A model generated the notes under the pieces. It did no database searches, was not told where the DNA came from, and saw only the letters and a program-made list of their open reading frames with translations. The position numbers were made by a program, and so were the translations under genes. 64,000 nt of DNA from Pachyseris speciosa (lineage: Eukaryota > Cnidaria > Anthozoa > Scleractinia > Pachyseridae): the NCBI GenBank assembly GCA_016490735.1, contig JAEMWC010001480.1, positions 87,298 to 151,297 of the forward strand, in the 5' to 3' direction. Numbering within the stretch: the first letter of the stretch is position 1; each line of letters starts with the position of its first letter. Shown here in pieces: positions 21,210 through 61,923 of this stretch.

Positions 21210-22330
21210 TCATTTAAAAATTGGCTGAATTCCAGAGGAAGTGTCGTTGAAAACGATTTGCACGTTTTGAATAGTGCAGTCACCAAAGAACGGTTTCGCA
21301 GGCACATGTTTTGTCAGGACTGACTTGGGAAGCTGTTGAGATTGCTGAGGAATTTCCGATAGACGACTTTCTTTACTGGCAGGATGGGAAAGTGCGCTTG
21401 ACAAGACTTGGCTGCAGTCATGAAGTTGTGAGGTTGAAGGCCGCGAGTTGTAGCTCACCAGGGACTGCTCACTGCGATGTCCTGAAATTGCCATGATATG
21501 ACGGTTTGATATCCCTGCATTGGACCAGAGAGTAATGGCAGTAGCGTGGTTTGTGTACGTTTTGGACAAACGAGCTTCTTCGCTAATAGATTTCATCATT
21601 TTGGCGAGGCTGTTTATCCCAAGCGGTCGCGCTTCGTACCAAACGGCATCTTCAGTTGTGCTTGTTTTCTTCGGATACTGAACCAAGGCAGTGCACTGTG
21701 GATTGACTTTCTGAAGATATAGTCTTAGGGCCGTGTAGCCGTCATCTTGGTCTTCGGTTTCGTACATTCTGGCTTCTTTTTCTCGGCTTTCAATGTCCTT
21801 TAAGCCACCGGGATGATTTTTGGACACTTCATCGTGGGCCATTGTTGCGTAGTTTCTCCCGGCTGCATCAGTTTCAAATTTGAAGCTCGTCGTCGTTAAG
21901 CTTCTTCGACCTTCACGGCCCCTCCTGCAGAAAAACAGGACAACATGGAACCAAACGTTCCTCAGCAAGGACAGAGGTGACAACAAGGAGAAAACTCCAC
22001 TTGATTTTAGCTTGTGCAGGTCTTGTTCTTCAATGACAGGTTTGTGCGTGACATTTTCTTTGCCGCTTCGTTTAAGATTTACGATTTGAGCATCAAGCAT
22101 TTGATTTGACCTTGCAAATCTTGGGTCAGAGGAAATTTGCAGGCCTCTGTTGAATGGAGAGGCACTGAGATATCTTTCCACCGAATGCCGAAATCCTAGC
22201 AGTGTTGATTTACTGTATTCTTCGCCTTTTTTTGTTCTCGCTTCGGCATAAAATCTTCGTAAATTTTGATAAAGCTGTCCGATCTTCATTGCCTCGAGCG
22301 GAGTTTGAATTTGTTTTTCTGCACACCAAA
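21210..22330 (-). CDS. Crypton-type tyrosine recombinase (KIAA1958-like), exon 2
   Basis: Main coding exon of 373 codons including the stop, preceded on the minus strand by the acceptor TCTAATTTCAG. Spliced to 22639-22858 it gives a 446-residue protein. The N-terminal part has the helical core-binding look (FYAEARTKKGEEYSKSTL, GFRHSVERYL). A box-I arginine candidate lies in CRRGREGRRSL (residues about 208-218). Near the C-terminus stand TNHATAITLWSNAG, HIMAISGHRSEQSLVSY and a candidate nucleophile Tyr at about residue 367. Family members normally read N-H-x-x-R before the A-x-x-I/A-T segment; here H335 is followed directly by ATAIT, so that arginine is absent. The intact frame suggests a young or selected copy, while the missing residue argues against normal recombinase activity. 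Confidence 0.8.
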
Positions 22331-22638
22331 CTGAAATTAGACAAAAAAGAAACAGGTGATCAAAACTGTGATCCTTCTAAGCAACTTAATTCCTTGATAT
22401 TTTCGCCTGTTTGTTATTGATGGAAGTACTTTTAAGTATCTTTCTGCAACAGGTATGTGACAACTATCTTTAAAAACAATGTTTACAAGGCGCAGCATTG
22501 AATTAGTTTACCGTTTACGTAACACTTTAGTGTAGATTGTGAAAGTGTTTCAATGGGTTTAAAAATCTCATAACTACGTTTCAGTTTCTTTGTCAAATCC
22601 AGAAAGAATATTGACCTCTGTTTGCTATTTTAACTTAC

Positions 22639-23645: not shown

Positions 23646-23804
23646 TGAGAAGTTATTGTTTGAGCTGATATTTAAGAATAATCAAATTGTTTTAGTAGAA
23701 ACTACAGCTGTAACTACATGTTTACATGTAGAGGATGCAAGGACCATTCTTCATTTGTTTACATGTAGTTGAAATATAGCAAAGAAAGACCATCTTAACA
23801 CTTT

Positions 23805-24460
23805 TTGTATACCTTTCACTTAACTTTGGCAAAACTTTTATCAAGAAAAAGTATATCTCCTATGCAGGCTCAGCAGAAGTGGCTAAGGGAATGTGAAATA
23901 GAAGATGACAAATGTATTAAGTGGCACGAAACTTACCAACTAGCTTTTAAGTGCGGCACAAGCACACAACTTGTCAAATTCCAACACAAACGTTTGCACA
24001 GACGAATATCAACTAACAAATTCTTAGTTAAAATCAGTCTACAAGATGACCCAAACTGCTCCTTTTGCAAAGATGAACCAGAAAAACTTAGTCACCTCTT
24101 TTGGTCCTGTCCCAAAGTGATTGCTTTTTGGACCTTCTTAATACAATGCTTTATTTTGTCTCAGATTATTCCAGAAAACTACCAAATCAGTATCCTTATG
24201 CATGTAGCTTTAGGATTGATACCAGATTCCTCCAAAAATCGTTGCCAAATGGTCTTTTGCCTCCTTTTAGCTAGACATTATACACTGCATTTGGATTTGT
24301 AAGAATAAGAAAATATTGCCAAAGGTAGAAGGCTTTCTCAGATATCTTAAGTCGATCTATCTAGCTGAGCAAAAGGCTGTGGGCACCCTACAAACAAAGT
24401 GGGAATTACTGAAAACTTTAATTTAGAAAGCCCCCCTTTTGTTTGTTTGTTTGATTAGTC
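23805..24460 (+). pseudogene. L1/Tx1-like LINE ORF2 C-terminal fragment, second copy
   Basis: A 165-codon + strand frame holds KWLRECEIEDDKCIKWHETY, FQHKRLHRRISTNKFL and the zinc-binding CSFCKDEPEKLSHLFWSC. The layout is the same as the fragment at 17.0-18.2 kb (FQFKLLHRRLATNSFF, CTFCQNDTESLIHLFWIC). The frame then breaks down near 24303. It is a 5'-truncated LINE tail in the same orientation as the host gene. Confidence 0.8.
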
Positions 24461-29343: not shown

Positions 29344-29686
29344 TGTATTTTAGGTATAGACAACAGGTGCGAGCATTGTATTAAAAGTTCTTAATCTTAT
29401 CTTCTATCATGCTGAACATGGAAATTTTCATTTAGAGAAATGAACTCTGCTTTTACTAAAACACGAGGAGAGACCTGAAACATAAAATCGCTTTCAGATA
29501 AGATGGATCATCGCAGTTATAAAGTCAAAGCAACTTAAGCAAAGTATTATAAATCGTTCACCCAGAGTTAACAGACATGGCTTATATATTGGCATTCATA
29601 AACTAGAACTAAACACACATTAGAACGGCAGAGCAATATTGCTGAAACTCAAACTAAATGATATCTCATGATATATTTTTTGGCAG

Positions 29687-29758
29687 CAAGTTGAATGACA
29701 ACCGCTTGAAGTCTTTACCTGATGGAGTTTTTGATCATAACCCCAAACTGCTTTTCTT
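29687..29758 (+). CDS. LRR-GPCR exon 3 (LRR, duplicated copy 1)
   Basis: 72 bp between TTTTTGGCAG and GTAAGT. It encodes KLNDNRLKSLPDGVF and DHNPKLLFL. It differs from copies 2 and 3 at the last residues (LLFL instead of LHLL) and in its first base (C instead of G), both keeping Leu at the junction. Confidence 0.93.
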
Positions 29759-29867
29759 GTAAGTAAAACTGTGACATAAGCTATAAAAAGAGCCTTAACT
29801 AAAATGGAAACTGTCGAGATTGCTAATAGAGTGACTTGTCATGACATTATTCTATTGTATATTTGAT

Positions 29868-29990
29868 AATTATCCTGCGAAATCGCGCCGAATATCACCT
29901 GATACTTAGCCGACGAGGCGATAGGACGAGTTGGCAAAAATCAGGGGATATTCTGCATGATTGAGCGGGATAATTGTTTTATTATGTTAA
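29868..29990. repeat. Foldback MITE inside the duplicated unit (also at 30790-30910)
   Basis: ATAATTATCCTGCGAAATCG faces GAGCGGGATAATTGTTTTAT, with an inner pair GAATATCACCTGAT and ATCAGGGGATATTC. Because it is present in both full units, it was there before the triplication. Relatives lie at about 55220-55310 and 59905-59995. Confidence 0.65.
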
Positions 29991-30616
29991 CTTAGTTTCA
30001 ATAGTTTCACTAGCAACCTTTGTGGTTCCCCAGGTACCATGGTATGGAATCCCAAAAATATGGGTTCCCAAGTCTCCACTGATTAAAATCAGTAGGTATA
30101 TGGGGGTTTTGTGTATGTGAGGGAAGGTGGTTGTGAGCAGAAAATAAAACCAGCTCTCTGAAGCTCAACAATTAGTGTTAGTTAAAGTAACAAAAACAAC
30201 TAAAACCTAGTAGAAATGTTAGATTAAATTACCAGAGAAAGTCGCATTAAGGAAATAGCTTTGGGGAGGGGCAAAACATGTGAAGGGATTAGGGTCAGCT
30301 AATTTTTGGGAGTGGAGATTTCTGTATGGGGACTATGGCTAGCTAGTTTGGCCGGAGAGGTGGAGATGGGGGGGGGGGGGATGGGTGGGTGGGGGAGAAC
30401 AAAGCAAGTATAGGGATTGGGGTTGGCTAATCCTGGGGAGACAGAAATTCTGTATCAGGATTAAGGTTATACTGAGCGAGAGACGTCTGCAGCGTTTTTT
30501 TAAGCTCTCTATTAACTAGAACTAAACACACATTAGACCGGCAGAGGAATATTGCTGCAACTCATTGAGACAATTTTATCAAACTAAATGATATCTCATG
30601 ATGTATTTTTTGGCAG

Positions 30617-30688
30617 GAAGTTGAATGACAACCGCTTGAAGTCTTTACCTGATGGAGTTTTTGATCATAACCCCAAACTGCATTTGTT
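30617..30688 (+). CDS. LRR-GPCR exon 4 (LRR, duplicated copy 2)
   Basis: 72 bp, acceptor TTTTTGGCAG, donor GTAAGT. The protein is KLNDNRLKSLPDGVF and DHNPKLHLL, identical to copy 3. The flanking intron is nearly identical to those of the neighbouring copies. Confidence 0.93.
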
Positions 30689-31543
30689 GTAAGTAAAACT
30701 GTGACAGAAGCTATAAAAAGAGCCTTAACTAAAATGGAAACTGTCGAGATTGCTAATAGAGTGACTTTGTCATGACATTATTCTATTGTATATTTGATAA
30801 TTATCCTGCGAAATCGCGCCGAATATCACCTGATACTTAGCCGACGAGGCGATAGGACGAGTTGGCAAAAATCAGGGGATATTCTGCATGATTGAGCGGG
30901 ATAATTGTTTTATTATGTTAACTTAGTTTCAGTAGTTTCACTAGCAACCTTTGTGGTTCCCCAGGTACCATGGTATGGTATCCCAAAAATATGGGTTCCC
31001 AAGTCTCCACTGATTAAAATCAGTAGGTATATGGGGGTTTTGTGTATGTGAGGGAAGGTGGTTGTGAGCAGAAAATAAAACCAGCTCTCTGAAGCTCAAC
31101 AATTAGTGTTAGTTAAAGTAACAAAAACAACTAAAATCACGTAGAAATGTTAGATTAAATTACCAGAGAAAGCCGCATTAAGGAAATAGCTTTGGGGAGG
31201 GGCAAAACATGTGAAGGGATTAGGGTCAGCTAATTTTTGGGAGGGGAGATTTCTGTATGGGGACTATGGCTAGCTAGTTTGGTCGGAGAGGTGGAGATGG
31301 GGGGGGGATGGGTGGGTGAGGGAGAACAAAGCAAGTATAGGGATTGGGGTTGGCTAATCCTGGGGAGACAGAAATTCTGTATCAGGATTAAGGTTATACT
31401 GAGCGGGAGACGTCTGCAGCGTTTTTTTAAGTTCTCTATTAACTAGAACTAAACACACATTAGACCGGCAGAGGAATATTGCTGCAACTCATCGAGACAA
31501 TTTTATCAAACTAAATGATATCTAATGATGTATTTTTTGGCAG

Positions 31544-31615
31544 GAAGTTGAATGACAACCGCTTGAAGTCTTTACCTGATGGAGTTTTTGATCATAACCC
31601 CAAACTGCATTTGTT
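31544..31615 (+). CDS. LRR-GPCR exon 5 (LRR, duplicated copy 3)
   Basis: 72 bp, acceptor TTTTTTGGCAG, donor GTAAGC. It encodes the same 24-residue repeat as copy 2. The intron after it is only 151 bp because the duplicated unit is cut short here. Confidence 0.93.
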
Positions 31616-31766
31616 GTAAGCAAAACTGTGACAAAAGCTATAAAAAGAGCCTTAACTAAAATGGAAACTGTTGAGATTGCTGCTAGAGCCACTTTAGCAT
31701 GGCATTAATTTGTTGTATATTGTTTATTCTACTTTGTTTGTAAAAAAAAATAATAAATAAAAATAG

Positions 31767-33196: not shown

Positions 33197-33672
33197 GTAA
33201 GTTACCATTTTTGATTCAATATTATCAGAGGACATTAATACGTTTTCGAACAATTACTACCTCAGCTTAAAACAATATCAAAACACTTTGTTTGTATAGG
33301 TTTATCAAAACGTGTTGACATGGAGTAAACGAGTTAATCGCGTTTGTTTACTTTAAATTAACTCATAAGCCTGCAAAGCGGTACTTTTAAGCGCAGAGTA
33401 ATAATACCAAACAACAATCGGGGCGAAATTGAGGGAAAAATGCCTACATAAAATCAGTTTCCACTGGCAAGAACGGAGTAAGATTGATTGTTCAATACTA
33501 ATCATACTGAATTGCTAGATCACCGAGCACATAGATGTAAAATGAGCTATTATGGTTTTATTGTATGGTGTTAATCTGTTCTCTTATTCGATAGTCCTAT
33601 CCTATGGTCTTTTTCTATGATATTATTTCATGCTGCTATTATTTTCTGCCCTGTAATTGTATCGTGTTATAG

Positions 33673-33744
33673 GTGGCTGGAAAGCAACGGGCTGCAGAAA
33701 TTACCACCTGGAATATTTGACAACAATAAGGAACTGCAGACACT
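33673..33744 (+). CDS. LRR-GPCR exon 10 (LRR)
   Basis: 72 bp between GTGTTATAG and GTAAGT. It encodes WLESNGLQKLPPGIF and DNNKELQTL. It is the last exon before the 14.1-kb intron that contains the large CACTA-like element. Confidence 0.92.
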
Positions 33745-33959
33745 GTAAGTAAACGCTGTTATTACATTAAAAAGATGTATAAACGTTCAAAGTGCACGCG
33801 GGTATAATCCGTACCAACTCGGTCTTTGATAGGTTTCAGCCTGTCTAGGTTTATTCTTCTTTTGTGGGGGTGGGGGACAGACATGGGAGAGGAAACTGAA
33901 ATATAAGACGATCAGGCTTGAGGGATGATTAGCATGTCACAGACTGTTTTCCACTGGAA

Positions 33960-34330
33960 AATCTGGACCATTTACAGAGTTAATGAAATGTCTGTGAATC
34001 TTAAATTTACAGACTTTTTATGAGAGTTCAAATCTGACCTACTTTTACATATGGCATACAAAATATCTGTAAAATCATTTTTATAGATATTTTATACACT
34101 TTTTGTGGTATTCCTTTTTATAATGTTTATGAAATGATTATGAAATTTAACTGCTGAAATAAGAAGGAAAACTGAAAAATTTACAGAGTTAACAAAATCT
34201 CTGAAGAATGTTTGTAAATTTGACATTTACAAAGATTTTCTATGGTTATTTTATCCACTAAAATCTCTGTAAATCGGTACAAGTATAGCATTTTAAAATC
34301 TCTGTAAATTGACACAAGCAGGACATAACC
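33960..34330. repeat. Left subterminal array of TTTACAG-type words
   Basis: About eight copies of (A)TTTACAGA or its complement TCTGTAAAT lie between 33970 and 34310, for example AAATCTCTGTAAATCGG and AAATCTCTGTAAATTGAC. They mirror the array at 46300-46927. Confidence 0.8.
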
Positions 34331-36867
34331 CCCATGATGCGGAGTTAAGTTAACTGAGTTACTACTGTTGGAGTTATTATAACTCCAAAAGGGTAGTGTG
34401 CGGCTTTTGTCTTGGATTTCAACAGCGCTTGTTTTTAAATGGGAAGCAGTGCGCGGCAAAGAAGGACGGCCTAAAACCTATTTCCTCGCCAAGTTTGTGC
34501 TTCCTGAGCGGCTGGGCTGATTTCCCTTTTGGGCGCCATAAGCATTGGCCGTTTGGCCGAGAGGCAAAGTGTTTAAAAATAAAGGTACTAAAGTGCGAAA
34601 GAGTCGTTTGAAAGACAAACCATACTTTCTGGGCTTAGCCCTTCACTGGAGGTATGTAGATGATTTGAAATTGCGTACTATTGTTCTTTATTATCTTCTG
34701 ACCGAGAGGGAGCTCGAGGGAGTTGGGTTAGACTTGGGCATGCGCAAACGAGTTCATTCCCGGTAGGCAATTTGTAGTTTTGGCGCCCGTTTCAACTCAA
34801 ACTTCGACTCGTGGAAGACAGTTTGGAAGGAATTTCTCCCACTTCGAATGGCTTTTTACCTCAAGATCATAGAATAATGGAATTTAATAGTTTTACAACG
34901 TATATGCGACCGGTTGGCAAGCTTCTTCCACGGTAATCGAGTGCTGTTGGTTCAAGTTTTTGGTCTCCATGTTCAGTGATGGTTGCCTTGGTCTGCTGTA
35001 GATTTCAAAGGTAAGCATATTGGCCATTTTAGACTGTAATATTTCCAACATATAGTACTGGCTGGGTGTATGTATCTCAAATAACTTGCTATACGAAGAA
35101 AATACAAGAGACTAGTGGTATTTTCCACGGTATATATGTACCACTCGAAAGCATTGCATAACTACAGTAGTACGTGCAGCTGTATAAAATTATGCTATCT
35201 TGCTAATTCATTACCGTGTTTGTTCTTAATATAAGCAAGGGTTAAGCTTACTGCATGTGCAGGTAAGGAATCGTAGCTAAGATTGCGGCAAACTAGGTGC
35301 TCAACTGGCTTACACTTGATTAGATCCATTGATTTACCTGTAGTTGGTGGCAAAGTGAGCTTTTGGTGTGATCATAAATTAATGTACTTGTACTTAAACT
35401 CAATTATAAATTTTGCTTTCCAAGTGTCTAAATTAGATGACAAGACTCCACTAATTACGTATACACTTACAAAATAATGTAAGACCCAAACTCTGTTTCG
35501 GGAGCAGGGTTAGCACAACAGTAATACAATGATTGTATTTAATTATGTATATGGAACTGTGTGGACATCTTTTGAAATTAGCTTTCCAATTTAAAGGCCT
35601 ATTTTTCTCCCTTGATCCAATGTTGGCATCTGTTTTTGTTTTGAAATTGTGCTGTTGTTAAAGGAAGGAAACATTTAGCTCTACACTAAAGCATACAGCT
35701 GTAGGAGCAAAACAAAGCAACACAGCAGTGTAGACCTCTTCACAGAGATCTCATCAAGAAAGAAATTATCACTCAGTTTAGACAATTGTAGAATGCCCAA
35801 TGGGGCATGAAAATTGCAGTTCATAAAGAGACACAATGACAAGTCAGATTGAATTGACACTGAAGAGTGGAGCCAAGCCACATAGTCCATTATGCAAACT
35901 GACCTTGAAGTAAAAACATCAAACATGAGGAAAACAGTTATCCAGACATATACACAATTTACTCATCATCAAATCGATTTCCAAATTGCAGTAAGTTGGC
36001 CCTCAGTGAATTGGTAGAAACTTCAAGGTAAAAAGCACCGAACATAAAACCTCATTTTCTTGTTACAGTACATGTCGTGTAAGTACTTTAAATTTGATAA
36101 AAAACAATGCTGTATGAATTGGCCATTATCATGTTGCCACACTTGACTCTTCTGACTTAAAATGGGCCAAAATTTACAAAATAGATATACAAAACTTTCC
36201 CAAAGAGAAAAACAGAGCAGCCATTAATTGTGGGATAAAACAAGGGCTTCAAAGGTTTAAGGAATTTCATGTCACACGAAATTCATGAATTATTGGTCAT
36301 GGCGTGTACAGCCCTGTAATGCATCAAGGCTGAAGATGGGTCTTTTAGTTTGAGTGTTCACATCTTCATTGAAGTGCCTACTGTTGTGGTAATGCAACTA
36401 TTAATTCTGTTAACCCTAACTCGACAAAAAAAATCGTGTGGTACAAAATTAATTCTGGCCACAGCTGCCGTCCAATAAAGTCTGCTTGATTTCATATCAG
36501 TGACCTGACTTTTTTTACAATGAGAAAAGAAATAGAGACAAAGCTAATTTATAGTTCTATAAAATTATATTTTATCCCAATCACAGTATACAGTAATATG
36601 TCAATTAAATTACACTGTAGTTGGCTTGCTTTATTTACCGGTACTACAACTGTACATGTATCACGTACAAATGACCTTCAAAGGCTGTTTATTTTTTCCA
36701 TAATAAGTACCGTGCTTGTGTCCAGGCAAGTATTTGGGGTGTTAAAACATAAATCTCTATCCTGCTTGATTGTATTTGAAATGCTTGGAGCCTTACACTG
36801 TACTTTTGTTTTGCAATAGTTGTGCTAAACAGCTACTGAGTATTGTATGGCATTTGCCTCCTTTTAC
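34331..36867. other. Interior of the CACTA-like element, left part, no gene recognised
   Basis: Several + strand ORFs of 60-75 codons at 34396-34766 and a 99-codon ORF at 36520-36819 carry no motif I recognise. No transposase signature was found. Confidence 0.4.
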
Positions 36868-38053
36868 GGGTCGGTACATTTCACTGACCCCCAGTCCATG
36901 GACTACCATGATGGACTACCGAAATGGACTACATATATGGACTGCTAAATGGACTACCAAAAATGGACTACCCTTAATTACCTACCTTGAAAAAAAAAAT
37001 TAGTTAAGTTTGGTTGTTTTCATCGATTGATCGTGATTATTTTTTAAATGCTGCTGTTCAGCTGTTCTGCAGGCGCATTCACTCGTCGTGCATGATGGCT
37101 GACAGGCTGCAGCTGGAGTAAAAATTTGATTTATAATCTTCCAGATGATTCCTTGCCTGGCTGTCATGATGCTCAAAATGGTAAGTGACAGAAGAAGATA
37201 CAACTCAAAAATAGATCACATGACCAGGCCCAGGGGGGTACTCCCTGAAAAGTTGGGTGGGGGTGCAGCCTGCTTCCCAGAAGCCTTACCTTATTTAAAG
37301 TGCACCTAGCCCCAAGAATAGTTATTCTTTCCGCTAATAATTTTATAATACTTTGTACATATTCCAAAAACATGTAGCATTTATTTCCAGCCTTTAGAGT
37401 TTTTTTATAGGGCTTACGATAAACTATGCATCATTTGGTACATGACCAAGTCAGCTGGGGCGTGGGTCTATTCCCCAGTTGACTATTATGTATGCATGTT
37501 TACAAAGACGCAGTGCGATGAAAATCAGTTTGTGACTTTAACTGTGGAAAAGACCCACGCTCCTTACTACCTTGATCGTGTGACAGATGACTGCTAATAT
37601 CGTAACTTTTACAGCCTGTAAAAACTCACGATTTGGTTATAAAAAATTAAAGGCGCAATGCGTTTTGAATAGGTGCAAAGATTAATTTTAGCGAAAAAAA
37701 ATATTTCAGTGTTGGGGGCACTTAAAGACCAAAATATCTGTGATTTTCCCTACCCTATCTATAACAAACGATTATAAATTCAAATTTTTACTCACCATCC
37801 AGCATGTCAGCCATCACACGAGATGAATGAATACGCCTGCAGAACAGCTGACCAGCAGCATTTAAAAGATAAAAGATGGTGAAGATCACGATCAATCGAT
37901 GAAAACAACCAAACTTTACTAATTTTTTTTTCAAGGTAGGTAATTAAGGGTAGTCCATTTTTGGTAGTCCATTTAGCAGTCCATATAGGTAGTCCATTTC
38001 GGTAGTCCATCATGGTAGTCTATGGACTGGGGGTCAGTGAAATGTACCGACCC
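36868..38053. mobile_element. 1186-bp Mutator-like foldback element, about 230-bp TIRs, 9-bp TSD TCCTTTTAC
   Basis: Begins GGGTCGGTACATTTCACTGA and ends with its complement TCAGTGAAATGTACCGACCC. TCCTTTTAC flanks both ends (36859-36867 and 38054-38062). The arms contain five to six TGGACTACC words and stay paired to about 37095 and 37820. Nine-base duplications with long TIRs point to the Mutator superfamily. It sits inside the CACTA-like element and itself contains the MITE at 37295-37725. Confidence 0.88.
37295..37725. mobile_element. 431-bp MITE with TTAAAGTGCACCTAGCCCC-type ends, nested
   Basis: The left end TTAAAGTGCACCTAGCCCC is mirrored imperfectly by TTGGGGGCACTTAA at the right end. 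The copy at 59212-59642 is also 431 bp and shares inner strings (GCATGTTTACA, GGCGCAATGCG/CGCGCAATGCA). Third level of nesting within the receptor intron. Confidence 0.8.
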
Positions 38054-38062
38054 TCCTTTTAC

Positions 38063-40242
38063 AGACTGTAGTGATAGCTTACCCAAGTATTACAACTGTC
38101 AGTGAGACCATCACTGTATGAGAGCAGATCAAAGGCAAGTGGAACTATCTAAAATTTTTAAAGTTATTTTTTTGCATCATAAGGTGGTATGTTCACTTCT
38201 TTTTGCCTTTTTTTAACTTTTACAATAATTAGTCATTCAAAAAGTTTCAGTTAATGGCTTGTAATGAGAATGTGCAATGAAGACCATACTGTAATTACAG
38301 TGTATTCTCCTGGATTTCTGAAATTTCATTACTGCTGGGGTGTTTTTCATACCTACAGACTGTATGATTGTCTAGTTGTTGTGTGTAATAAAGAATAACA
38401 TTTAAGATGGCTTCATGTTCATGGAACAAGCGTAAAACTCCCAAGCCCAACCATATATGCATGTGCCATTGCAGCATTAACACCAATCCTTTAAAAAGAA
38501 TCTCCCTTAATGTTTGCGTCATCCCTGCAAACTGCAATGATGCTTGGTCATGAGAAGGTTAAGACACAGTGTTGACATGCTTGAGCATACAAAATAATTA
38601 TAAGACAGTCTTCTGGCCTGCCATCATGGCTTGTAACACTTAAAAACTAGATCATGTTTTCCAGAGACCTACACTAAGACCATCTACATGTAACAGTATT
38701 GTTTGGGAGATCATAACAGTAATCATCCTCTGGCACTCAAGATTTGAATCTTTGAATTTTTCAGCCTGGCCAATGTAGCATTTTGTATTGTGTTAACATG
38801 CACATATTTTTCAATATTTAAGCTCATATTTTCATTCTGGTTTCTGAACTGTGCAGTTCAGTGTATACTTGGCCTTGACATCCGGTTTTTTTAATCTTCA
38901 GGCTGAATACATGTAGTTATGTGCGCAGTACAGTATATGGCAGACTACTTTACAGTGTATGCTCAAGTTGCAAAGAAAAGTAAAACCTTTTAAGGTAAGA
39001 ACTTTCTGTAACATAGCATGATGAAGGAATGTGACCATTATTGAACCTTTTGTCGTCTTCGGAATTTTTGTTCCACCTCATGCAACCTTGATCCAGTGTA
39101 ACAAAAAAGATCACATCAGCATGATGGGCTTGTGATTTCTTTTAAGTCCTGGTCAAACTATTGAACAAAGTTGGATTTAACATTGCAAGATTCTTCGACC
39201 GTTTGACCGCCCATGTTGGATGATGTTTGTCAAACAATTTTTGCTAGATCAAGTGTTGGATAGAGTTTGCTTTTGATCAAACATTACACCCAACAATTCT
39301 GCTCAATGAAAAAAACGTTGCAGTGTTTTGCCGCTCTTCCAACAAAGCTTTATCCTGATGCAAGTCACATTCACCCTGCTAGCCAATCAATAGTTGCTAT
39401 TTTCGTGCTCTCTTTGCAGATGTCCGGTTCAATAGCGTTTAAAATTTCTGAGAACTGATCTGGGCTTGTTGATTCTAATCATCTCCCTAAACACGGGTGT
39501 ATCTTGCAATGATAACTGTAAAACGGTTTGGAACATACCCTTTTCAGCTTGTTCTCTCAACCATTCCATGATTTTTTCTCACTTCACACCGAACACTGAA
39601 CAGCTCTGGTACCATAAACATTAACGCTAAGCACTTTTGGTTTCCACTTTAGTGCTACAGTGTATGTTTTAAATTACATTTTAGTGTCAAGTTGTACCAG
39701 TAGCTTGTTTTGCCACAGACTATAGTTTGGATACATGTACAATGTAGTTTGGCCAGGGCTTTACACTACACTGTATGTCTTAAATTACTGTACTCCCACT
39801 TTAAAAGAATGAATAATGCTGTAAATACATGTATAACTGTCCATACCCTATGATCACCAGTTAGGTGAACTATCTAATGTTAACCGATTTCAAAATTAAT
39901 TGGAAAGTTTGTTACTTTTCAAGAAAGGCTTCCCTCGTGATGCATTCAGAGAACTGTGTTTGCTGATAAGTCATATTCATCGTTACAATACTAGACATTG
40001 CAACTGTACTGTGTAGAACTAATATCAGACAGTTTGCAATAAGTTTCCAGACCTACAATGTAAACTGTTTAATTTCTTTCATTCAGAAATTCAGAATGCT
40101 GACAGTATTTCTCTGTTGAAATCTGAATTAAGAACATTACTCCTCTATTGACTACTCCTATTTTGAAAGTGTTGTTTTATGTTTAGCTGCTGGTGTGTGT
40201 TTGTTTGTGTGCTTGCTTTTTACACGTACATGTAACCTAAGT
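38063..40242. other. Interior of the CACTA-like element, no gene recognised
   Basis: AT-rich with short ORFs only. Many ACATGTA words occur, as elsewhere in this intron. Nothing identifiable. Confidence 0.4.
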
Positions 40243-40682
40243 GTAACATGATAGTAATGCATGAAACCCCAAACAGAAAATCGAAAAAAATCTGAGTTCC
40301 AGACGGGATTGGAACCCACGACCCTCTGCGATCTAGACGACGTTCTAACCACTGAGCTACTGGTGAGCAAGGGTGAAATGTGGGCTTTGACTGGAACTCC
40401 ATCACGCGGTCACACAGCCATCTTTGATATGCCTCAATATGCATCTTTGATATGCCTCAATGTGACTGCGTGATGCAGTTATGTATGTGCTAGTCATTAT
40501 TTGGCTGTGTGACCACGTGATGCCCACATTTCACCCTTGCACACCATAGAGTGTCCAGTAGCTCAGTGGTTATCCATCTAGATTGTGGAGGGTCGTGGGT
40601 TCGAATCCCATCTGGAACTCAGATTTTGTTTTCGAGTTTCTGTTTGGGGTTTCATGCATTACTACATGTATCATGTTGTATT
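40243..40682. mobile_element. Palindromic pair of tRNA-derived SINE heads (about 440-bp hairpin)
   Basis: The + strand right arm (40556-40622) reads like a tRNA: AGCTCAGTGG (A box) and GGTTCGAATCC (B box). The left arm (40295-40362) has the same region on the minus strand with GGTTCCAATCC. Outside them ATGAAACCCCAAACAGAAA is mirrored by TTTCTGTTTGGGGTTTCAT. Inside them GCAAGGGTGAAATGTGGGC is mirrored by GCCCACATTTCACCCTTGC. The whole is one long hairpin. It is not a functional tRNA gene, since no complete cloverleaf was made out. Confidence 0.75.
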
Positions 40683-41458
40683 TCTTATTTCACTCACTTT
40701 GTAACCTAAATGAATTGATTAATTAAATAAGCTACATGTATGCCTAAAAATCATGATTTCCAAGTTGTAATTTTTTAGGAGCCCGTAGCTCGTATAAGCC
40801 CCAATGGTTTCTTTATGGACATCCTCGCCATTATGTTTCTCATTCTTTTCTTATTTATTTATCTTTTGTATCTTAATACATATTTATCTTGTAACAATGT
40901 GTAAGAAATATGGAAAAAAATACATTGAAACTGTTGAAATTGCCTGCTCCAAAAAAAAAAAATTCATCTTTCCTATAAATAAAAATTAATGTGACCTGCA
41001 GTACAAGCAATTTTTTCTTCTAGCCAATCTGGTATCATACATAATTATGTGCTACATAGAGTCCTTTGAAGTTTACCCCCTAATAGTAATTTCCTTTTCA
41101 TACCTTATACATGCTACTGTAACAGAGTAAGGTACATGTACTTGTCATTGCCACCACATTAACTCTACTCAATTTTTTTTGCCTTTATGCAAACTGTAAT
41201 AAGTTAAGCCTATACTAAGCATGAAATAGCCTCCACAGTGAAGTCTTATTGTCCATGCTTCTCCTTGAAGGCATAATGTATCATGTTACAATGCATGCAA
41301 GTTATGGAAGCTTTTCACAGCCAATAACAGTCCCTTAGAGTCCAGGCAAACCAAGTCTTTAAAATAATAAATCTTTGTGTACGGTTGACCCACCGAATCT
41401 TTCCTTATTGATGGTCTATCCAGTGTTGACCAATTGATACACATACAGTACACTGTAA
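40683..41458. other. Interior of the CACTA-like element, no gene recognised
   Basis: AT-rich, with poly-A at about 40955. No motif or repeat that I can name. Confidence 0.4.
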
Positions 41459-41756
41459 TAGCCTCCTATGCAGCTGTTACTTACATGTTGGTCGTATTCT
41501 CCCTCCCCACCAACATCTGCTGAACGGAGCCGGACATTCCCTTCCCAGGAACTGATTAGTCACATCATGGCTGTTAAATTTTGGTGGCAACATGTAAGTT
41601 CCTGTAGCCTCCTTTGCAGCCATTTTTGTCAGTTCTCTTCTCCCTCCAGATTGAATACTTAGGCACAATGGGAATGGAATTTCCAGCTTAGTTCACCAGA
41701 CATTAGTGGGGAGGGATTAAGGACAGACCCAAACAACAGCTGCAAAGGAGGCTAAT
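41459..41756. mobile_element. About 298-bp MITE with TAGCCTCCT(A/T)TGCAGCTGTT ends
   Basis: TAGCCTCCTATGCAGCTGTT at the left is mirrored by AACAGCTGCAAAGGAGGCTA at the right. The TA at each extremity may be the duplicated target. Inside, GCAACATGTAAGTTCCTGTA and GCCTCCTTTGCAGCC give a second, internal copy of the end motif. Confidence 0.75.
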
Positions 41757-42022
41757 GCACATAAGTGATGTTTTCAACATTAAGGAATACATGTACATGC
41801 ACATGTATATCTATATGCGTAGATACATAATTATATTATGTGTTGTTGTATCATACAAATCAAATGCTAGCATTTTCTTTGTTCCTTCAATCAGTTTAGT
41901 TCATTTAAAGTCTTTTTTTTTCTTTTACAGAAAGAAAAATAGCACATCAGAGTATCAAGGACACCAACTTCATTGCCAAAGGAATTTGTCTTGGGTGGTC
42001 ATCTATTTATGGTCTGGGAAAA

Positions 42023-42150
42023 GCCATCAGTATAATTCTCATTCTTTCTATCTATTTTAACCCCTCTGAACAGGCGGGTAGCACGCCTCATACAGTTCAG
42101 TAACATACATGTAATCTTTCATTCTCTCTATCTAGTTTAATCATAACGAG
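42023..42150 (+). repeat. Solitary unit of the 82-bp satellite found at 45.4 kb
   Basis: Contains CCTCTGAACAGGCGGGTAGC and then CACGCCTCATACAGTTCAG, with partial flanking units ending TCTATCTAGTTTAA. It matches the array at 45404-46018 although it is 3.3 kb away. Confidence 0.85.
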
Positions 42151-42570
42151 CCAGAGATAACCGAAAGTTAAAAAATCTCCCAAGTCTAGTTGCTAAGGAG
42201 TGACGTTATAGGCCTGCATAAGAGCCGTCAACGTACTCCATTTGTGGTTTCACTGCAGGAGCATCTTCGCACACCTTGAAAGAAGTATTGTTTTTGCCCT
42301 TCAGCGGCAGAATTTAATTTACCACCACGCGGCACGCTTATGCCATGTTCTCATGGCATTTTATGGCTTTACTTGTAAGACAAAACGCTAGTTTCGTCAA
42401 ATGTTATGCTTTAGCGATTCGTTGAGATTTTCAAGGGGATAATCGGCATATTTCAGTATGTGATGGCCAGAAATTACAGCTTCTGAAAGCCTTTTCAAAC
42501 TACCAAGTAGTTTAGGACTCTGTGTATGTTTGTGCGATGAAAATAGCAATAGTAAAATATTCAGTGATTT
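42151..42570. other. Short spacer before the 118-bp satellite, nothing recognised
   Basis: No repeat or gene that I can name. Confidence 0.4.
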
Positions 42571-44150
42571 AGAATATGTAACTTGCAGATAAAGATTTAG
42601 GCAAATGTTACAATTCTTTTCTTGTTCATCCAGGTTGAAGTCCTGGCATCACTGTATGCCTGAGTGCTTCTGGGATATATAACATGAATAGTTTTATGAA
42701 GTGCAGATAAAAATCTAGGCAAATGTTCTATATCTTTTCTGGTTCATCCAGGTTGAGGTCCTGGCATCACTGTATGCCTGAGTGCTTCTGGGATATATAA
42801 CATGAATAGTTTTTTTGAAGTGCAGATAAAAATCTAGGCAAATGTTCTATATCTTTTCTGGTTCATCCAGGTTGAAGTCCTGGCATCACTGTATGCCTGA
42901 GTGCTTCTGGGATATTTAACATAACATTTTTTTTTAAATGCAGCTAAAAATTTAGGTAAATGTTCTATATCTTTTCTGGTTCATCCAGGTTGAGGTCCTG
43001 GCATCACTGTATGCCTGAGTGCTTCTGGGATATATAACATGAATAGTTTTACGAAGTGCAGACAAAAATCTAGGCAAATGTTCTATATCTTTTCTGGTTC
43101 ATCCAGGTTGAGGTACTGGCATCACTGTATGCCTGAGTGCTTCTGGGATATTTAACATAACGTTTTTTTTTAATGCAGCTAAAAATTTAGGCAAATGTTC
43201 TATATCTTTTCTGGTTCACCCAGGTTGAAGTCCTGGCATCACTGTATGCCTGAGTGCTTCTGGGATATTTAACATAACAGTTTTTTTTTAATGCAGCTAA
43301 AAATCTAGGCAAATGTTCTATATCTTTTCTGGTTCATCCAGGTTGAGGTCCTGGCATCAATGTATGCCTGAGTGCTTCTGGGATATATAACATGAATAGT
43401 TTTTTGAAGTGCAGATAAAAATCTAGGCAAATGTTCTATATCTTTTCTGGTTCACCCAGGTTGAAGTCCTGGCATCACTGTATGCCTGAGTGCTTCTGGG
43501 ATATTTAACATAACAGTTTTTTTAAATGCAGCTAAAAATTTAGGCAAATGTTCTATATCTTTTCTGGTTCATCCAGGTTGAAGTCCTGGCATCACTGTAT
43601 GCCTGAGTGCTTCTGGGATATTTAACATAACATTTTTTTTTAAATGCAGCTAAAAATTTAGGTAAATGTTCTATATCTTTTCTGGTTCATCCAGGTTGAG
43701 GTCCTGGCATCACTGTATGCCTGAGTGCTTCTGGGATATATAACATGAATAGTTTTTTGAAGTGCAGATAAAAATCTAGGCAAATGTTCTATATCTTTTC
43801 TGGTTCACCCAGGTTGAAGTCCTGGCATCACTGTATGCCTGAGTGCTTCTGGGATATTTAACATAACAGTTTTTTTAAATGCAGCTAAAAATTTAGGCAA
43901 ATGTTCTATATCTTTTCTGGTTCATCCAGGTTGAGGTCCTGGCATCACTGTATGCCTGAGTGCTTCTGGGATATATAACATGAATAGTTTTTTGAAGTGC
44001 AGATAAAAATCTAGGCAAATGTTCTATATCTTTTCTGGTTCACCCAGGTTGAAGTCCTGGCATCACTGTATGCCTGAGCGCTTCTGGGATATTTAACATG
44101 ATCAGTTTTATGAAATGCACATACAAATCTAGGCAAATGTTGTAAGCAGG
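42570..44150 (+). repeat. 118-bp satellite array, 13 units, with higher-order variants
   Basis: The word CCAGGTTGA(A/G)GTCCTGGCAT recurs 13 times from about 42631 to 44047 at a mean spacing near 118 bases. Each unit ends TGCCTGAGTGCTTCTGGGAT. Two unit types alternate: one followed by ATATATAACATGAATAGTTTT, the other by ATATTTAACATAACA and a T-run. Their order approximates A A B A B B A B B A B A. The CCAGG...CCTGG core can form a small hairpin. Confidence 0.93.
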
Positions 44151-44757
44151 TTTAATGACCAAAACGTTTTACAGTTGGTACATTTCTTTGCAGAACAATA
44201 ACACGTTTGGATGAAATGTTTTTTGTTTTTCGAGAACGTTTTCCTTACTTTAATGCCCTTCAGACTAATTTAGTCCTTGGAGAGTTCGCCAGCATTTTCC
44301 AAGTTAAACAAATTTTAACAATCGGGAGAGAATTAGAAAAAGGAGAAGTTGTATTTTGAAATGATGATTTCGATACCGTCGCCGTTGTCGCTTTTACTGC
44401 CAAGGTCGGTTTCGGAAGTCGAATAGTGAAACTTCCATTTCGACGTCTGCCGAGGTTATTGAGGAATTATTCAACGAGAATTTTATCAGTTCCTAGGGAA
44501 ACCGTACGGATAGTAAAACTTTTGTTCATGGGCACGCAACGATATCACATATTGAAGCGAATTATTTTAGCTCAGTGATGTTAATTTACTTTCACGGCGT
44601 TTAAGAAGAGTAATACTTGCAGACTGATTTGTGTATATTACTCCCAAATATGTTCACTATTACCATGTATTGCAAGTATCTTTGATTTAGGAATACAAGC
44701 GAATTTTAATTAGCGTTCAAAAGAGATATATATCCCTCCAAAAACAAAACACATAAT
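44151..44757. other. Spacer between satellite and MITE, nothing recognised
   Basis: No coding or repeat signal that I can name. Confidence 0.4.
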
Positions 44758-44983
44758 AGGGCTGTTTATACGAGAGAAAATAAGCCACGGATTACTCTGG
44801 CCGCGGCTTACAGAAGATGCGAAAGGAACCATTTATACAAGTAAAAACTCCTAGGCCAGGATAAGCCGCAGCTTGAGAAAGCCGTGAATGTAGATTTTGT
44901 ACCATTTATACGGAGTGTTTGTGTCTTATGTAATCCGTGGCCAGAGTAAGCCGCGGCTTATTTTCTCTCGTATAAACAGCCCT
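44758..44983. mobile_element. 226-bp foldback MITE (AGGGCTGTTTATACGAGAG ends)
   Basis: AGGGCTGTTTATACGAGAG and AAAATAAGCC are mirrored by GGCTTATTTT and CTCTCGTATAAACAGCCCT. Further inner repeats of the GGCCGCGGCTTA type also pair. TA/AT bases stand at the borders. Confidence 0.85.
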
Positions 44984-45403
44984 ATTGTTTTTCCCATATT
45001 GCATGCGAAAGAGAAACAAAGAAAACTTGAGTCTTTGGTTGTAATTTAGTGCTATTTTCTGGAACCGGTGAGCCTACCTCAAGAGTAATTATTCACCAAA
45101 ACCAAAACAAACTATTGGGTATCTTTTTCCGGTTCCCGCAGTCACTTTTCGAGTGCATCAGGTCTAAAGATAGAATTTAATTAAACTCTCGTCATAAATA
45201 AACGATCGCGTTTAAGGATTATGACAGATAAGCGTGAAAATTGACGCCCCATATCAAACAGAAACGAGTACCAAACGCGATTCAATTACATTGGAATGTT
45301 CAGAGTAGCTGGATATCCTGCTGAGATTGGTGGCAAATTGCCCCCTATCTCAGCGGGATCCAGTGGTATTTTTGTGGTTGCTAAGAACCTCTGGCTCGTT
45401 ATG
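44984..45403. other. Spacer, nothing recognised
   Basis: No coding or repeat signal that I can name. Confidence 0.4.
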
Positions 45404-46018
45404 CCTCTGAACTGGCGGGTGGCACGCCTCATACAGTTCAGTGTAACATACATGTAATCTCTCTTTCTCTCTATCTAGTTTAATTCCTCTGAACTGGCGG
45501 GTGGCACGCCTCATACAGTTCAGTGTAACATACATGTAATCTCTCTTTCTCTCTATCTAGTTTAATTCCTCTGAACTGGCGGGAGGCACGCCTCATACAG
45601 TTCAGTGTATCATACATGTAATCTCTCTTTCTCTCTCTCTAGTTTAACCCCTCTGCACTGGCGGGTGGCACGCCTCATACGGTTCAGTGTAACATACATG
45701 TAATCTCTCTCTCTCTATAGTTTAATTCCTCCCTACTAGCGGGTGGAACGCCTTATGTTGTCCAGTGTAGCATGCGTGTAATCTGTCTTTCTCTCTGTCT
45801 AGTTTAACCCTTCTGAACTGGCGGGGGGCACGCCTCGTACAGTTCAGTGTAACATAAAACATTAGTAATTTAATTCCTCTGAACTGGCGGGAGGCACGCC
45901 TCATACAGTTCAGTGTATCATACATGTAATCTCTCTTTCTCTCTCTCTAGTTTAACCCTTCTGAACTGGCGGGTGGCACTCCTCGTACAGTTCAGTGTAA
46001 CATAAAACATTAGTAACT
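45404..46018 (+). repeat. About 82-bp satellite array, eight units, each with a hairpin
   Basis: Units start near 45404, 45486, 45568, 45650, 45728, 45810, 45876 and 45957. Each has CTGAACTGGCGGG(T/A)GGCAC, then GCCTCATACAGTTCAG, then a CT-rich tract ending TCTAGTTTAA. CTGAACTG and CAGTTCAG in each unit are complementary, so every unit can fold into a stem. The minus-strand ORFs repeating CMRRA-R-Q-F-R are artefacts of the array. Confidence 0.93.
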
Positions 46019-46299
46019 CCAATTGTGAGTTATACCAGCAGCCGTTTGGAATGAAAATATAATTTTCCAGTGTTAATAAGAAACGATAAAGCTAAGGGAC
46101 GTAAATTATACAACTTCTGCGGCAACTGCAATAGAAAGGATACCTTTTTCATGCCGTTAAATGTTCAGTGGCGATGGACTGGCAAGCTCGGCCCTGAAAA
46201 GTTCACGGCCACTGACGTTTTTAGCGTTTTTCAGGTCGCTTTAGTACCAGCTCGTTTTTGCAAAGAAAACGTTAACATTTTGCAATAAAATACATATCT

Positions 46300-46927
46300 T
46301 TTGAAGATACAGTATTGTCTGCACTTGATTTATCGACAGACACTTTGTGGTCCAGCTTTTGTTCACTTTTTATAGACATTTTGTTGGGATTTTGTGTTCT
46401 GGCGTTTCATCCTGGTTTGTTTCCCTCTGTCTTTTACAGAGAAAATATGAAGATTTTGCTGAGATTTCATATGGTACTCCTTGTATATTTTACAAACATT
46501 ACACCCACTTTTTATTAACATTGTGTGCTTTTTATTTGTGTACATTTTATTAACATTTCATGCAGTTATTTTGGTTCGATTTTTACGAAGATTTTATGGA
46601 CATTTTATGTTCTTTATTTTACAGAGTTTTTTCCTAGAGTTTTTTTTACAGAGAATACCTTGAGATTTTACAAGGATTTTTACAAAGTTTATGAAATCTC
46701 TGTAAATTTTGCTTACAATTTACACAGAAAACATTGAGATTTCACAGACATTTAATGGGATCTGGACGCGTAAAATTCTGTCGAATCTACAGACATTTTA
46801 TAGGGTTCATAAAATCTCTGTAAGTGTGCACGTTTACAGACATTGCAATTTACAAAGGAAATGTATACATTTTACAGAGATTTGACAAACTTTTTTGAAG
46901 TCTGTAAATGGTTCAAGTTTTCCAGTG
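46300..46927. repeat. Right subterminal array of TTTACAGAGATTT-type words
   Basis: More than a dozen degenerate copies of TTTTACAGA(G/C)ATTTTAT(G)G occur in both orientations, densest at 46610-46910. They face the array at 33960-34330 and end at the CAGTG terminus of the CACTA-like element. Confidence 0.85.
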
Positions 46928-46930
46928 TTC

Positions 46931-47846
46931 TTTCTCGATATTGATGGGGGCACATGGCATGGGAATGTAAGGTCATTATCTGCAACCAGCGGCAACCATC
47001 TGTGAGCAATGTATTTCCAGGAAAATTAATAAGAAAAACAATGTTGTGGGAAGAAAGCAATTTTCACTATTAAAAATAAGTGTATCCCAGTATGGATGTC
47101 ATGGGAATATCTGTTTCCATGGTCATCGGTATTTCACAACAGTTTGCTGTTAAATATAAATGACTAGAAAAGGCGCAAAGCCTTATCACGATAGTTGACA
47201 TATATTGAGTACTTTGAGGATAATCGTAATATAGACAACTTTTTTTATATCACTTGTGAATTACGTTATAAGCACTGGGCCCTAAGTAAAACCCCATGAA
47301 TTGGGTAAAAAAAATACAAAATCGTGTGCTAAAATATTATCAAAACCCAAACCAAGTGACGACATAATTCATTCAGACATAATTCATTCAGAACTGTGAC
47401 ATCTTGTTTTTACTGCAATGTTTCAGAAGAGTCTTTCGGGATCGGTTTTTAAAACAATTAGTTTAGACGACGTTACAGCCGCGTCCTAAGCCATTTTCAA
47501 TTTTGCCAACAGTCATATCTAAACATTGTCTACTGTTGATGGTAACAAAAAGGCTTGCATCCCAAACTTGAAAACTACTTATTTACTTTATAAATAAACC
47601 ACTTATAAACAGACTCTGTTTGTAAGTGGATTTGGACACCCACTGATCGTCTGAAACCGCGGCCCATTAGTTCAACGTTGTTTAAATAACTGGCCCTCAG
47701 TTTAAAGACGTTTAACTTAAGGTATGATTATTAAAAATCAGGGAAAAGAACTTTTCGCTTTTCCTGACTGACGGGCGTTGATTAAAAAAAACCCTTATTT
47801 TGCTAAGTGTTCACTAAAATTCAGTCGCGTTTTGTAATTCTTACAG
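46931..47846. other. Remainder of the 14-kb intron, nothing recognised
   Basis: AT-rich, short ORFs only. Confidence 0.5.
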
Positions 47847-47918
47847 CCTTTTGAACGACAACAGCCTCACGCAGTTAAACGAGAGTGTGTTTCATAACTT
47901 GACGAATCTGACGTACTT
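47847..47918 (+). CDS. LRR-GPCR exon 11 (LRR)
   Basis: 72 bp between TTCTTACAG and GTAAGT. It encodes LLNDNSLTQLNESVF and HNLTNLTYL, with three N-x-S/T sequons. It is the first repeat with the F-x-x-L form (Leu after Phe) that dominates the downstream set. Confidence 0.92.
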
Positions 47919-59211: not shown

Positions 59212-59642
59212 GTTAAAGTACACCTAGCCCCCGAAAATATTTTTTTCGTTAACTTAATCTTTGCACCTGTTCGAAATGCACAGCGCGTTTTTGCGCCTTT
59301 TAAAACCAAGTCTTGACTTTTTTATAGGTTGTAAAGGTTACGAAATCTAGTCTTCATCTGTCCCAAGATCGAGTTAGTAAGGGACATGGGTGTAGTTCTG
59401 GTTTGACGTCACAAACTGCTTTGCATGCATGTTTACATAGACTTATCGCGATGCAAATTAGTTTGAGGCGCCAAACCTGGAATACTTCCACGCCCCTTAC
59501 TAGCTCGGTCGTGGGACAGATGATGGCTAGATTTCATAACTTTTGCAGTCTACAAAAAGTTGGATTTGGTTTAAAAACGCGCAATGCAGTGCGAACAGAT
59601 TTATTTCAGGAAAAATATATTTTGGGGTTAGGTGCACTTTAA
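59212..59642. mobile_element. 431-bp MITE, sister copy of 37295-37725
   Basis: TTAAAGTACACCTAGCCCCC is mirrored by GGGGTTAGGTGCACTTTAA. It has the same total length as the nested copy at 37.3 kb and shares inner strings such as GCATGTTTACA. Non-coding. Confidence 0.85.
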
Positions 59643-59904
59643 GTGTAAAGGACAACTGGGGAAACCATAAAATAACGATAAATGCTATTTTACGTTGACA
59701 TACTCTGGATACGTACCCCTATTATTATTCAGCACACCGTGACAATGTCTAAATATGGTCATAGCGCGCTCAATATTCGTCATGCTTACTCAACAGATAT
59801 CAGTCATTTACTGTGTCGCGGACAAAAAAAATGGCAGCTTTTCGGGGTTTTTTGCTATATGAACGCAGAAAATTGTACTTTGTCATCAAAGTGCTGAATA
59901 ATAA

Positions 59905-59995: not shown

Positions 59996-60525
59996 TCTTT
60001 AAATATCTGCAGCTTGCAAACATGCAAACATTTTTTTTTTAATAAAAAAATTGGATTTGGTGGTCTGTGTGCAACTTTCGCTTTGGAAAAGGGTGTTTTT
60101 GATTAAAAACGCTGTTCATGGAACACAGCAAGTTAAGTCGTTGTCAATTTCAGCTACGATGGAAGTCGCCAGCAGCATCCCGCGCTCTCACGGACATTTG
60201 AGATATTACAATTTTGGCGTTTCACAAAATTATTAAACTTTCTCACTATATATATTCACGAAAGACACTGGATGAGTCCTATGATGACTTGATTCTCTTT
60301 GAATTAAGTATTGTCTCATTTGTCATTAGAGAAGTTGATATTTTTGAATGAGCTTACATCCCATGAGATTCAACCGAGTAATAATTTTATAGGTGTTGTT
60401 TTTCAGCTTCATATTTGTAGAACGTTTCATCAACCTGTTGTTATTACATTTCCTTGTAGCAAAGACTTCATATTTTATTGTATTGTGTAACTGTACTATT
60501 AAAAATGTTTTTTTTTTCGGTCTAG
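59996..60525. other. Intron before the 7TM exon, nothing recognised
   Basis: AT-rich, ending in a T-run and GGTCTAG acceptor. No repeat or exon seen. Confidence 0.5.
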
Positions 60526-61534
60526 AACTCTTGATTCCAACATCATGTGCTGCCACGCGGAATTCAAGCAAGACGCAGGCTGTGACTATGTCATCAACGA
60601 CAACTTCGCTAACTGTGACAGTATGTTTCGTAATCCTGAACCAAAGAGAAGTATCTGGGTTATTGGAATTCTATCTGTGATTGGTGCTGTCCTTGTTCTT
60701 GTCTGGCGAACGTACGTTAAGGAAAAGAACGTTGCACAGTCTATTATGCTGATGCACGTGGCAGTGGCCGACGGACTGATGGGTGTATATTTGCTGGTTG
60801 TTGGTATAATGGATGCCGTATGGTCTGGTGTCTACTATTTGCATGATTTCTATTGGCGAACTGGACTTCCATGCCAAATAGTAGGAGGCACTGCTGTGTT
60901 GTCCAGTGAGGTCTCGATAATGATTCTGTCTCTGCTTTGCCTCGACAGAGTGAAACACATTGTGTATCCGAAGCGATTTAAGTTGCTAAACCGAAAGAAA
61001 ACCCATGCGTTTTGCTTTGTGATCTGGGTGGTTGGGTTTTTCATTGCTTTCCTTCCAACCTTTGGCATCCGATATTTCTATGATCCAGAGTCAGGCATTT
61101 ACTTCTATGGGAAATCTGTGGTGTGCTTGCCTATTCAGCTTACCCCTGAATTCATATCGGGTTGGGAATATTCATCTGCCATATTTGTTGGTCTGAACCT
61201 GGTTTTTGTGGTGTTTATTATCGTTGCATATGCAATGATATTCGGTAAGACCTACCTGTCTAAACGCCGCCTACGCCTTCAAGGGACAAGAAGGGAGAGG
61301 AAAGCCAGGAGCCAGACAGCTGATGCAAAGAGGGAGACATCACTGGCCAAACGTCTTGCGGCCATTGTCCTGACTGACGTAGTCTGCTGGGCCCCAATTA
61401 TAGGATGTGGAATGGGATCAGCGGTGGATAAAGCTTTTGATCCACCAGGTGATATTGCTGTTTGGATGGCTGTTTTCGTTCTGCCAATCAACTCAGTGAT
61501 AAATCCATTCCTCTACACCTTCTCAACTACAAAG
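60526..61534 (+). CDS. LRR-GPCR exon 21: hinge and seven-transmembrane domain
   Basis: Acceptor TCGGTCTAG, donor GTACAT; 1009 bp (1 + 336 codons), entering with the base that completes Ile and leaving in phase 0. The hinge reads LDSNIMCCHAEF with further Cys in GCDY and NCDSMF. Helix 1 starts at SIWVIGILSVIGAVLVLVW. Helix 2 has HVAVADGLMGVYLL. The TM3 cysteine is in GLPCQ and the helix-3 end reads LCLDRVKHIVYP, in place of E/D-R-Y/W. The extracellular-loop-2 Cys is in SVVCLPI. Helix 6 has VLTDVVCWAPI, typical of LGRs, and helix 7 has LPINSVINPFLYTF with N-P-x-x-Y. All helices in one exon is usual for this family. The frame continues past 61534 to a stop at 61732, but that tail looks intronic. 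Confidence 0.95.
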
Positions 61535-61923
61535 GTACATAGCAACTTTTCTAGAAAACCATCTTCACTTTATTTTCAATATAAAATGAATGTATCTTAC
61601 GGAAATTTCAAGGTCCTTTATCTCGTTAAGCCATATACAACTAAAAATTCCATTAACAGTAGGGGAATTTTTCAACCAGATCTCAGACATACTTACTTTG
61701 TCAATTTGGATGATCGTCTTTCGAGAAACTAAACTAAAGTTGTGGAGAATACCACAAGATATTCTACTTACATTGAAGTTTATAATAACGATGTTTATTT
61801 CATATTAAAGGTGCCACAAAATGGTCTAAAGCATGGCAGTATAGAAAAATATTCCCCATAATTAAGATTGCGGCATGCTCCAATATGGAAAGGCTTTTAA
61901 TAAGAACTTGATTTCTTCCCTAG

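Follow-up and report, generated by a model that had tools for sequence, protein, structure and literature searches.

The window considered here is a stretch of 64,000 nucleotides from the scleractinian coral Pachyseris speciosa (assembly GCA_016490735.1, contig JAEMWC010001480.1, positions 87,298 to 151,297 of the forward strand; coordinates below count from its first letter). It contains a relaxin-receptor/GRL101-like gene with many predicted leucine-rich repeat (LRR) exons of 72 nt, detected by an exon pattern search; the open frame 60503-61732 includes a 7tm_1 receptor exon. One predicted intron of this gene (33745-47846, GTAAGT...TTACAG) lies between two 72-nt LRR exons and harbors, as an earlier note on this DNA had placed it, a 13-kb element at 33952-46927, which is probably a member of the CACTA/EnSpm-like DNA transposons. 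The ends of the element, its subterminal arrays and the bordering exons are:

33673..33744, plus strand: predicted LRR exon, 72 nt, upstream of the element-bearing intron (exon pattern)
33949..33951, no strand: TTC, left copy of a putative 3-bp target-site duplication (flank comparison)
33952..33988, plus strand: left terminal inverted repeat with a perfect outer CACTGGAAAA (37-nt inverted match, 81%)
33952..34320, no strand: left subterminal array holding 8 words with no more than 2 mismatches, mixed orientation, 11-bp lag with z 3.1 (word counts, lag analysis)
46321..46927, no strand: right subterminal array holding 12 words with no more than 2 mismatches, orientation largely uniform, 11-bp lag with z 6.0 (word counts, lag analysis)
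46891..46927, minus strand: right terminal inverted repeat, ending in TTTTCCAGTG (37-nt inverted match)
46928..46930, no strand: TTC, right copy of the putative 3-bp target-site duplication (flank comparison)
47847..47918, plus strand: predicted LRR exon, 72 nt, downstream of the element-bearing intron (exon pattern)

The element-bearing intron measures 14,102 bp, and removal of the element together with one TTC leaves 1,123 bp. Regarding the other 14 predicted introns, 13 range from 141 to 1,115 bp and one measures 4,723 bp. The size of the intron without the element is near that of its neighbours, which is independent support for an insertion of such extent. (Note that the exon pattern consisted of AG, 66-78 nt and GT with an LRR word, that the 72-nt reading was taken and 16 exons were used, and that the resulting list is a minimum: exons off the pattern escape it, and the upstream matches 7492 and 7721 and a possible exon at about 58635 were omitted.)

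Ends and subterminal arrays

The outer 10 bp of the two ends are perfectly inverted (CACTGGAAAA at 33952-33961, its complement TTTTCCAGTG at 46918-46927), and the inverted match of 33952-33988 with 46891-46927 comprises 37 nt at 81%. Both agree with the boundaries 33952 and 46927 given in the earlier note, and the TTC that it reported on either side stands directly outside them. Past the outer 10-mer the inverted match continues at 20 of 27 bases; the most frequent value in a set of 3,296 pairs is 7. Exact inverted 10-mer pairs that start with CACT and span 1-25 kb number 13 in the window; equal 3-bp flanks were found in one of these, the 33952/46927 pair, and at least 20 of 27 matching bases in two, the same pair and one within the arms of a nested foldback (26/27). 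No other exact 10-bp end flanked by TTC in the window pairs with either end of the element.

Arrays of a degenerate word inside both ends, likewise noticed earlier, stand out clearly from shuffled sequence. The word TTTACAGAGATTT, counted at up to two mismatches, has 8 occurrences in 33952-34320 (369 bp at the left end; shuffles: mean 0.08, maximum 1, n=300) and 12 in 46321-46927 (607 bp at the right end; mean 0.18, maximum 2, n=300), and the first subterminal word already begins within the left inverted repeat, from its position 20 inward. Exact copies of the word are few, with four in the whole window, all of them within the two subterminal regions. The 8-mer TTTACAGA at up to one mismatch was counted 26 times in the 977 bp of the subterminal regions versus 88 times in the other 63,023 bp; its orientation is mixed in the left array (6 plus, 5 minus) and mostly uniform in the right one (12 plus, 3 minus). 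A weight matrix yielded 44 starts of at least 9 bits in the subterminal regions and 33 across the remaining window, counts that are biased towards the former since the matrix was trained on them. Single-strand DNA folding of the ends was better than that of shuffled sequences (z -3.5, equalled by none of 100; z -2.3, equalled by one of 100), which adds little and is explained by the inverted orientation of the words.

Two properties not contained in the earlier note are the spacing of the words and their arrangement in head-to-head pairs. The words are spaced 11 bp apart, about one helical turn, with the repeat unit TTTTACAGAGA, strongly so at the right end and modestly at the left. With 300 shuffles, lag 11 has the highest z-score of lags 5-40 at the right end (z 6.0) as well as at the left (z 3.1). 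The lag-11 score was also computed for 212 segments of 600 bp, with 30 shuffles for each, and peaks in the segment at 46201 (z 7.7). Head-to-head pairs of the form TTTACAGA...TCTGTAAA, in which the mismatches total two at most and the gap is 6-26, occur ten times in the window and in all ten cases subterminally; they represent eight distinct starts, some sharing a word, whereas shuffling of the two subterminal regions gave means of 0.01 and 0.03 (200 shuffles). The most frequent gap is 12 (3/10, at 33971, 34180 and 46679), and a fourth pair with this gap, at 46797, carries three mismatches. The best pairs are 28 bp long with the 12-bp gap, which sets their arms 20 bp apart, or about two helical turns. 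The 11-bp spacing and the pairs, the latter confined to the end regions, are as would be expected of binding-site arrays.

The ends might also derive from different elements, or match by chance, in an intron enlarged by unrelated insertions. Several other mobile elements clearly lie between them, inverted repeats are common in the window, and TTTTCCAGTG recurs at 46063-46072, near an 82-bp tandem array. The two ends nevertheless match over 37 nt and share TTC, word arrays, head-to-head pairs and the 11-bp spacing, and neither finds another TTC-flanked exact partner in the window, so that separate origins are very improbable. The additional TTTTCCAGTG was itself considered as the true end, which is unlikely: it is flanked by TTA, and only 6 of the next 27 bases match. 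It is regarded as chance or a remnant.

Interior of the element

The six frames of the element, with stops read as X, were compared with Pfam at E≤1, and no family, including any transposase domain, was found above its cut-off, in agreement with the observation in the earlier note that no transposase frame is visible. The rows obtained were ThiI_fer (E 0.23) and DDE_Tnp_4 (E 0.93; 9.5 bits versus a cut-off of 24.8), both in the same frame and far below their cut-offs. As a control, two of the three forward frames of the downstream flank gave LRR_8 (E 6.5e-05 and 0.003) from stretches of 22 and 24 residues (23.1 and 17.7 bits, under the cut-off of 27), so the scan has some power for short exons. 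Protein homologues of two open reading frames of the element were not found (three candidates, none at E≤0.001; seven candidates, none at E≤1). Rfam yielded no family at the gathering threshold in the window, and ARAGORN no tRNA in 33900-47000. The following units were recognized between the ends:

36859..38062, no strand: nested Mutator-like foldback 36868-38053 with the 9-bp duplication TCCTTTTAC on each side (131-nt arms, 98% complementary)
40252..40664, no strand: nested foldback with tRNA-like arms (inverted-repeat match; A-box/B-box resemblance by eye)
42033..42141, plus strand: outlying copy of the 82-bp tandem unit; the unit at 42142-45403 lies between it and the main array (sequence comparison)
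42142..45403, no strand: nested unit of 3,262 bp whose 15-bp inverted ends CATAACGAGCCAGAG are perfect, within the 82-bp array (inverted ends)
45404..46004, plus strand: 82-bp tandem array, directly inside the right subterminal region (tandem repeat)

Mutator/MULE elements are characterized by long inverted ends and a 9-bp duplication, and the unit at 36868-38053 has both; a MULE transposase was not found in the six-frame Pfam scan of the element. Part of the interior of this foldback is 70-75% similar to a downstream foldback at about 59235-59643. The arms of the foldback at 40252-40664 resemble, by eye, tRNA A-box and B-box motifs; ARAGORN reports no tRNA there. The 3,262-bp unit contains a tandem array of 13 units of 118 bp (42584-44141) and a small foldback (44755-44986), and no clear target duplication was found around it.

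According to their coordinates, the nested units total about 4.9 kb of the 13 kb and leave a core of about 8.1 kb, and the large size of the element is therefore partly secondary. Regarding the single 13-kb element described earlier, its ends and extent hold, whereas its interior is a composite with nested insertions and not uniform. The core offers room for a gene, and the nested insertions suggest age; the element could thus be a once-autonomous CACTA element whose transposase gene decayed past recognition or was displaced by the insertions, and not part of a non-autonomous family, a variant compatible with a CACTA/EnSpm-type origin. This is possible but somewhat doubtful, as the nearest row of the Pfam scan, which picked up sub-cut-off LRR stretches of 22-24 residues downstream, is DDE_Tnp_4 at E 0.93.

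Affiliation and proposed origin

We consider it likely that a CACTA/EnSpm-type DNA transposon inserted at a TTC site in the receptor intron, duplicated this TTC and later collected further insertions. The ends have the CAC...GTG form (CACTGGAAAA and TTTTCCAGTG), a 3-bp duplication, TTC, is present in one copy of the element (with a chance of 1 in 64), and the subterminal arrays consist of short words in both orientations, as in plant CACTA elements; the architecture recognized in the earlier note is thereby supported. No EnSpm-type transposase (Transposase_21) was found in the six frames of this copy at E≤1, as expected of a non-autonomous copy. The element, a single copy in which no transposase is recognised, is filed as CACTA/EnSpm-like and not as a proven member. 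The combination of CAC...GTG ends and a 3-bp duplication has been taken as consistent with EnSpm (PMC12730594).

Several observations weigh against this assignment. Equal 3-bp flanks occur in 42 of all 3,299 exact inverted 10-mer pairs of 1-25 kb span, about the chance rate of 1 in 64, and the TTC match by itself is therefore weak, supporting evidence. At least 20 of the next 27 bases match in 146 of 3,296 pairs, a number to which further inverted repeats of the window contribute at many offsets each; a value of 20/27 is thus not unique, and identity is moderate past the outer 10 bp. The pentamer at the ends is CACTG, and the CACTA core of plant elements is not present. The lag-11 score of segments at 32101, 31801 and 20401 reaches z 4.1-4.8, and that of the segment at 33601, which includes part of the left end, z 4.0, so that the signal of the left end (z 3.1), taken alone, is not exceptional for the window, and a TTT-TTT spacing of 9-11 bp is also seen in one control stretch (38100-38700). 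The gaps of the head-to-head pairs vary from 10 to 24, 12 being merely the commonest. A diverged animal transposase could still evade the Pfam scan, and the superfamily would be assigned from the ends and the duplication of a single copy.

The element might instead be a non-autonomous member of another lineage of the CMC clade, such as Transib, Chapaev/Chapaev3, TRC or an undescribed one, with a much similar mechanism. No transposase is left to decide this. Transib elements produce 5-bp duplications, and the flanks GACTGTTTTC and TTCTTTCTCG share only 3 bp. CA..TG ends with duplications of 2-5 bp are common to most of the clade (PMC12730594), and CAC...GTG ends are also found in Chapaev (PMC4079192). 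Chapaev3 shares these ends and the 3-bp length of the duplication, but its duplication is TWA between A and T and not TTC (PMC4079192). The animal TRC elements SmTRC1 and Hydra Spongebob belong to the CACTA superfamily, but their ends are CCC and their duplications 2 bp long, whereas the coral element has CAC ends and a 3-bp match (PMC1636069; PMC4298943). An origin outside CACTA/EnSpm but within the clade is accordingly judged rather unlikely.

Among the closest parallels is soybean Tgmt*, which has CAC-type inverted ends, a 3-bp duplication, an intron insertion and subterminal repeats that are asymmetric (lying within 159 and 732 bp) and occur in direct as well as inverted orientation (PMC2613891). 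In contrast to Tgmt*, the coral element has no recognised coding capacity, ends in CACTG and carries an AT-rich word at 11-bp spacing. In maize Spm/En, arrays of subterminal words are cis-determinants of excision and transposition and are recognised by TNPA (PMC2613891); the En-1 word, however, is 12 bp long and of other sequence, and the recognition described there may only be extended to the coral element by analogy. Fungal EnSpm families agree in their CAC..GTG terminal bases and 3-bp duplications and differ in encoding a transposase and TET/JBP genes (PMC12730594). The En/Spm families of the red alga Chondrus crispus are similarly enlarged (16-20 kb), but possess 4-5 open reading frames, whereas none was recognised in the coral element, whose size is partly due to nested insertions (PMC6431247).

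For the origin of the locus we infer that a cut-and-paste transposon of CACTA/EnSpm type would have entered a TTC site of the receptor intron, the TTC being duplicated. As the copy is without a recognisable transposase, it would either have been moved by an enzyme supplied in trans or have lost its gene, and other mobile elements would have inserted into it afterwards. A transposon-encoded DNA-binding protein would probably bind the words at both ends; given the 11-bp spacing, the bound proteins would face the same side of the helix, and the head-to-head arrangement hints at dimers. With TNPA on Spm/En as a model, the bound protein may help to pair the two CACTGGAAAA termini for cleavage. A spaced subterminal array at defined ends allows a concrete prediction of how the transposase or a helper protein attaches there. 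The locus also illustrates how a receptor intron can grow about twelvefold through a single insertion and others nested in it.

Apart from its regularly spaced repeat arrays, the element is a good but ordinary CACTA-type specimen. More tentatively, it may represent a coral family not described so far, made up of large non-autonomous CACTA-like transposons with arrays of helically spaced (11-bp) binding sites and embedded head-to-head pairs as their ends. Animal CACTA elements give the impression of being little studied compared with those of plants, in which the superfamily has received extensive study (PMC4298943). No such element was found described in the open-licence literature on coral and cnidarian CACTA/EnSpm elements; in the available text of two papers EnSpm is merely named in lists (PMC13327316, PMC6505742). 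The helically spaced end architecture was not found described for animal CACTA elements in the available text of open-licence papers. Exact patterns of the terminal inverted repeat, the pair and the 82-bp and 118-bp units had no match in viral contigs (5/5 scans), nor had those of the terminal inverted repeat in genome contigs (2/2 scans). As these collections consist of viral and prokaryote sequences and the scans register exact matches only, the results are almost uninformative on corals.

Receptor gene and remaining features

Among the best 120 of 126 matches to the receptor gene, the closest were from ENA (88% identity and lower), and the coral relatives with names were relaxin-receptor-2-like, GRL101-like or unnamed-product proteins from Pocillopora and Stylophora (51-62% identity). 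These matches by themselves point to a host that is probably a coral from outside the Pocilloporidae. Upstream of the element-bearing intron, 29598-31721 is composed of a unit of about 0.92 kb in tandem, with one LRR exon per unit; 29598-30794 and 30511-31721 are 95% identical over 1,215 bp, and the translations of the exons at 29687, 30617 and 31544 are near-identical. These units look like a recent exon duplication within the receptor gene.

Elsewhere in the window, an open frame of 388 codons with DUF3504, possibly of mobile-element origin, is located at 21210-22376 on the minus strand. Fragments related to reverse transcriptases are found at 8252-9112 (minus strand) and 23799-24302 (plus strand), with RVT_1 below and zf-RVT above the cut-off.

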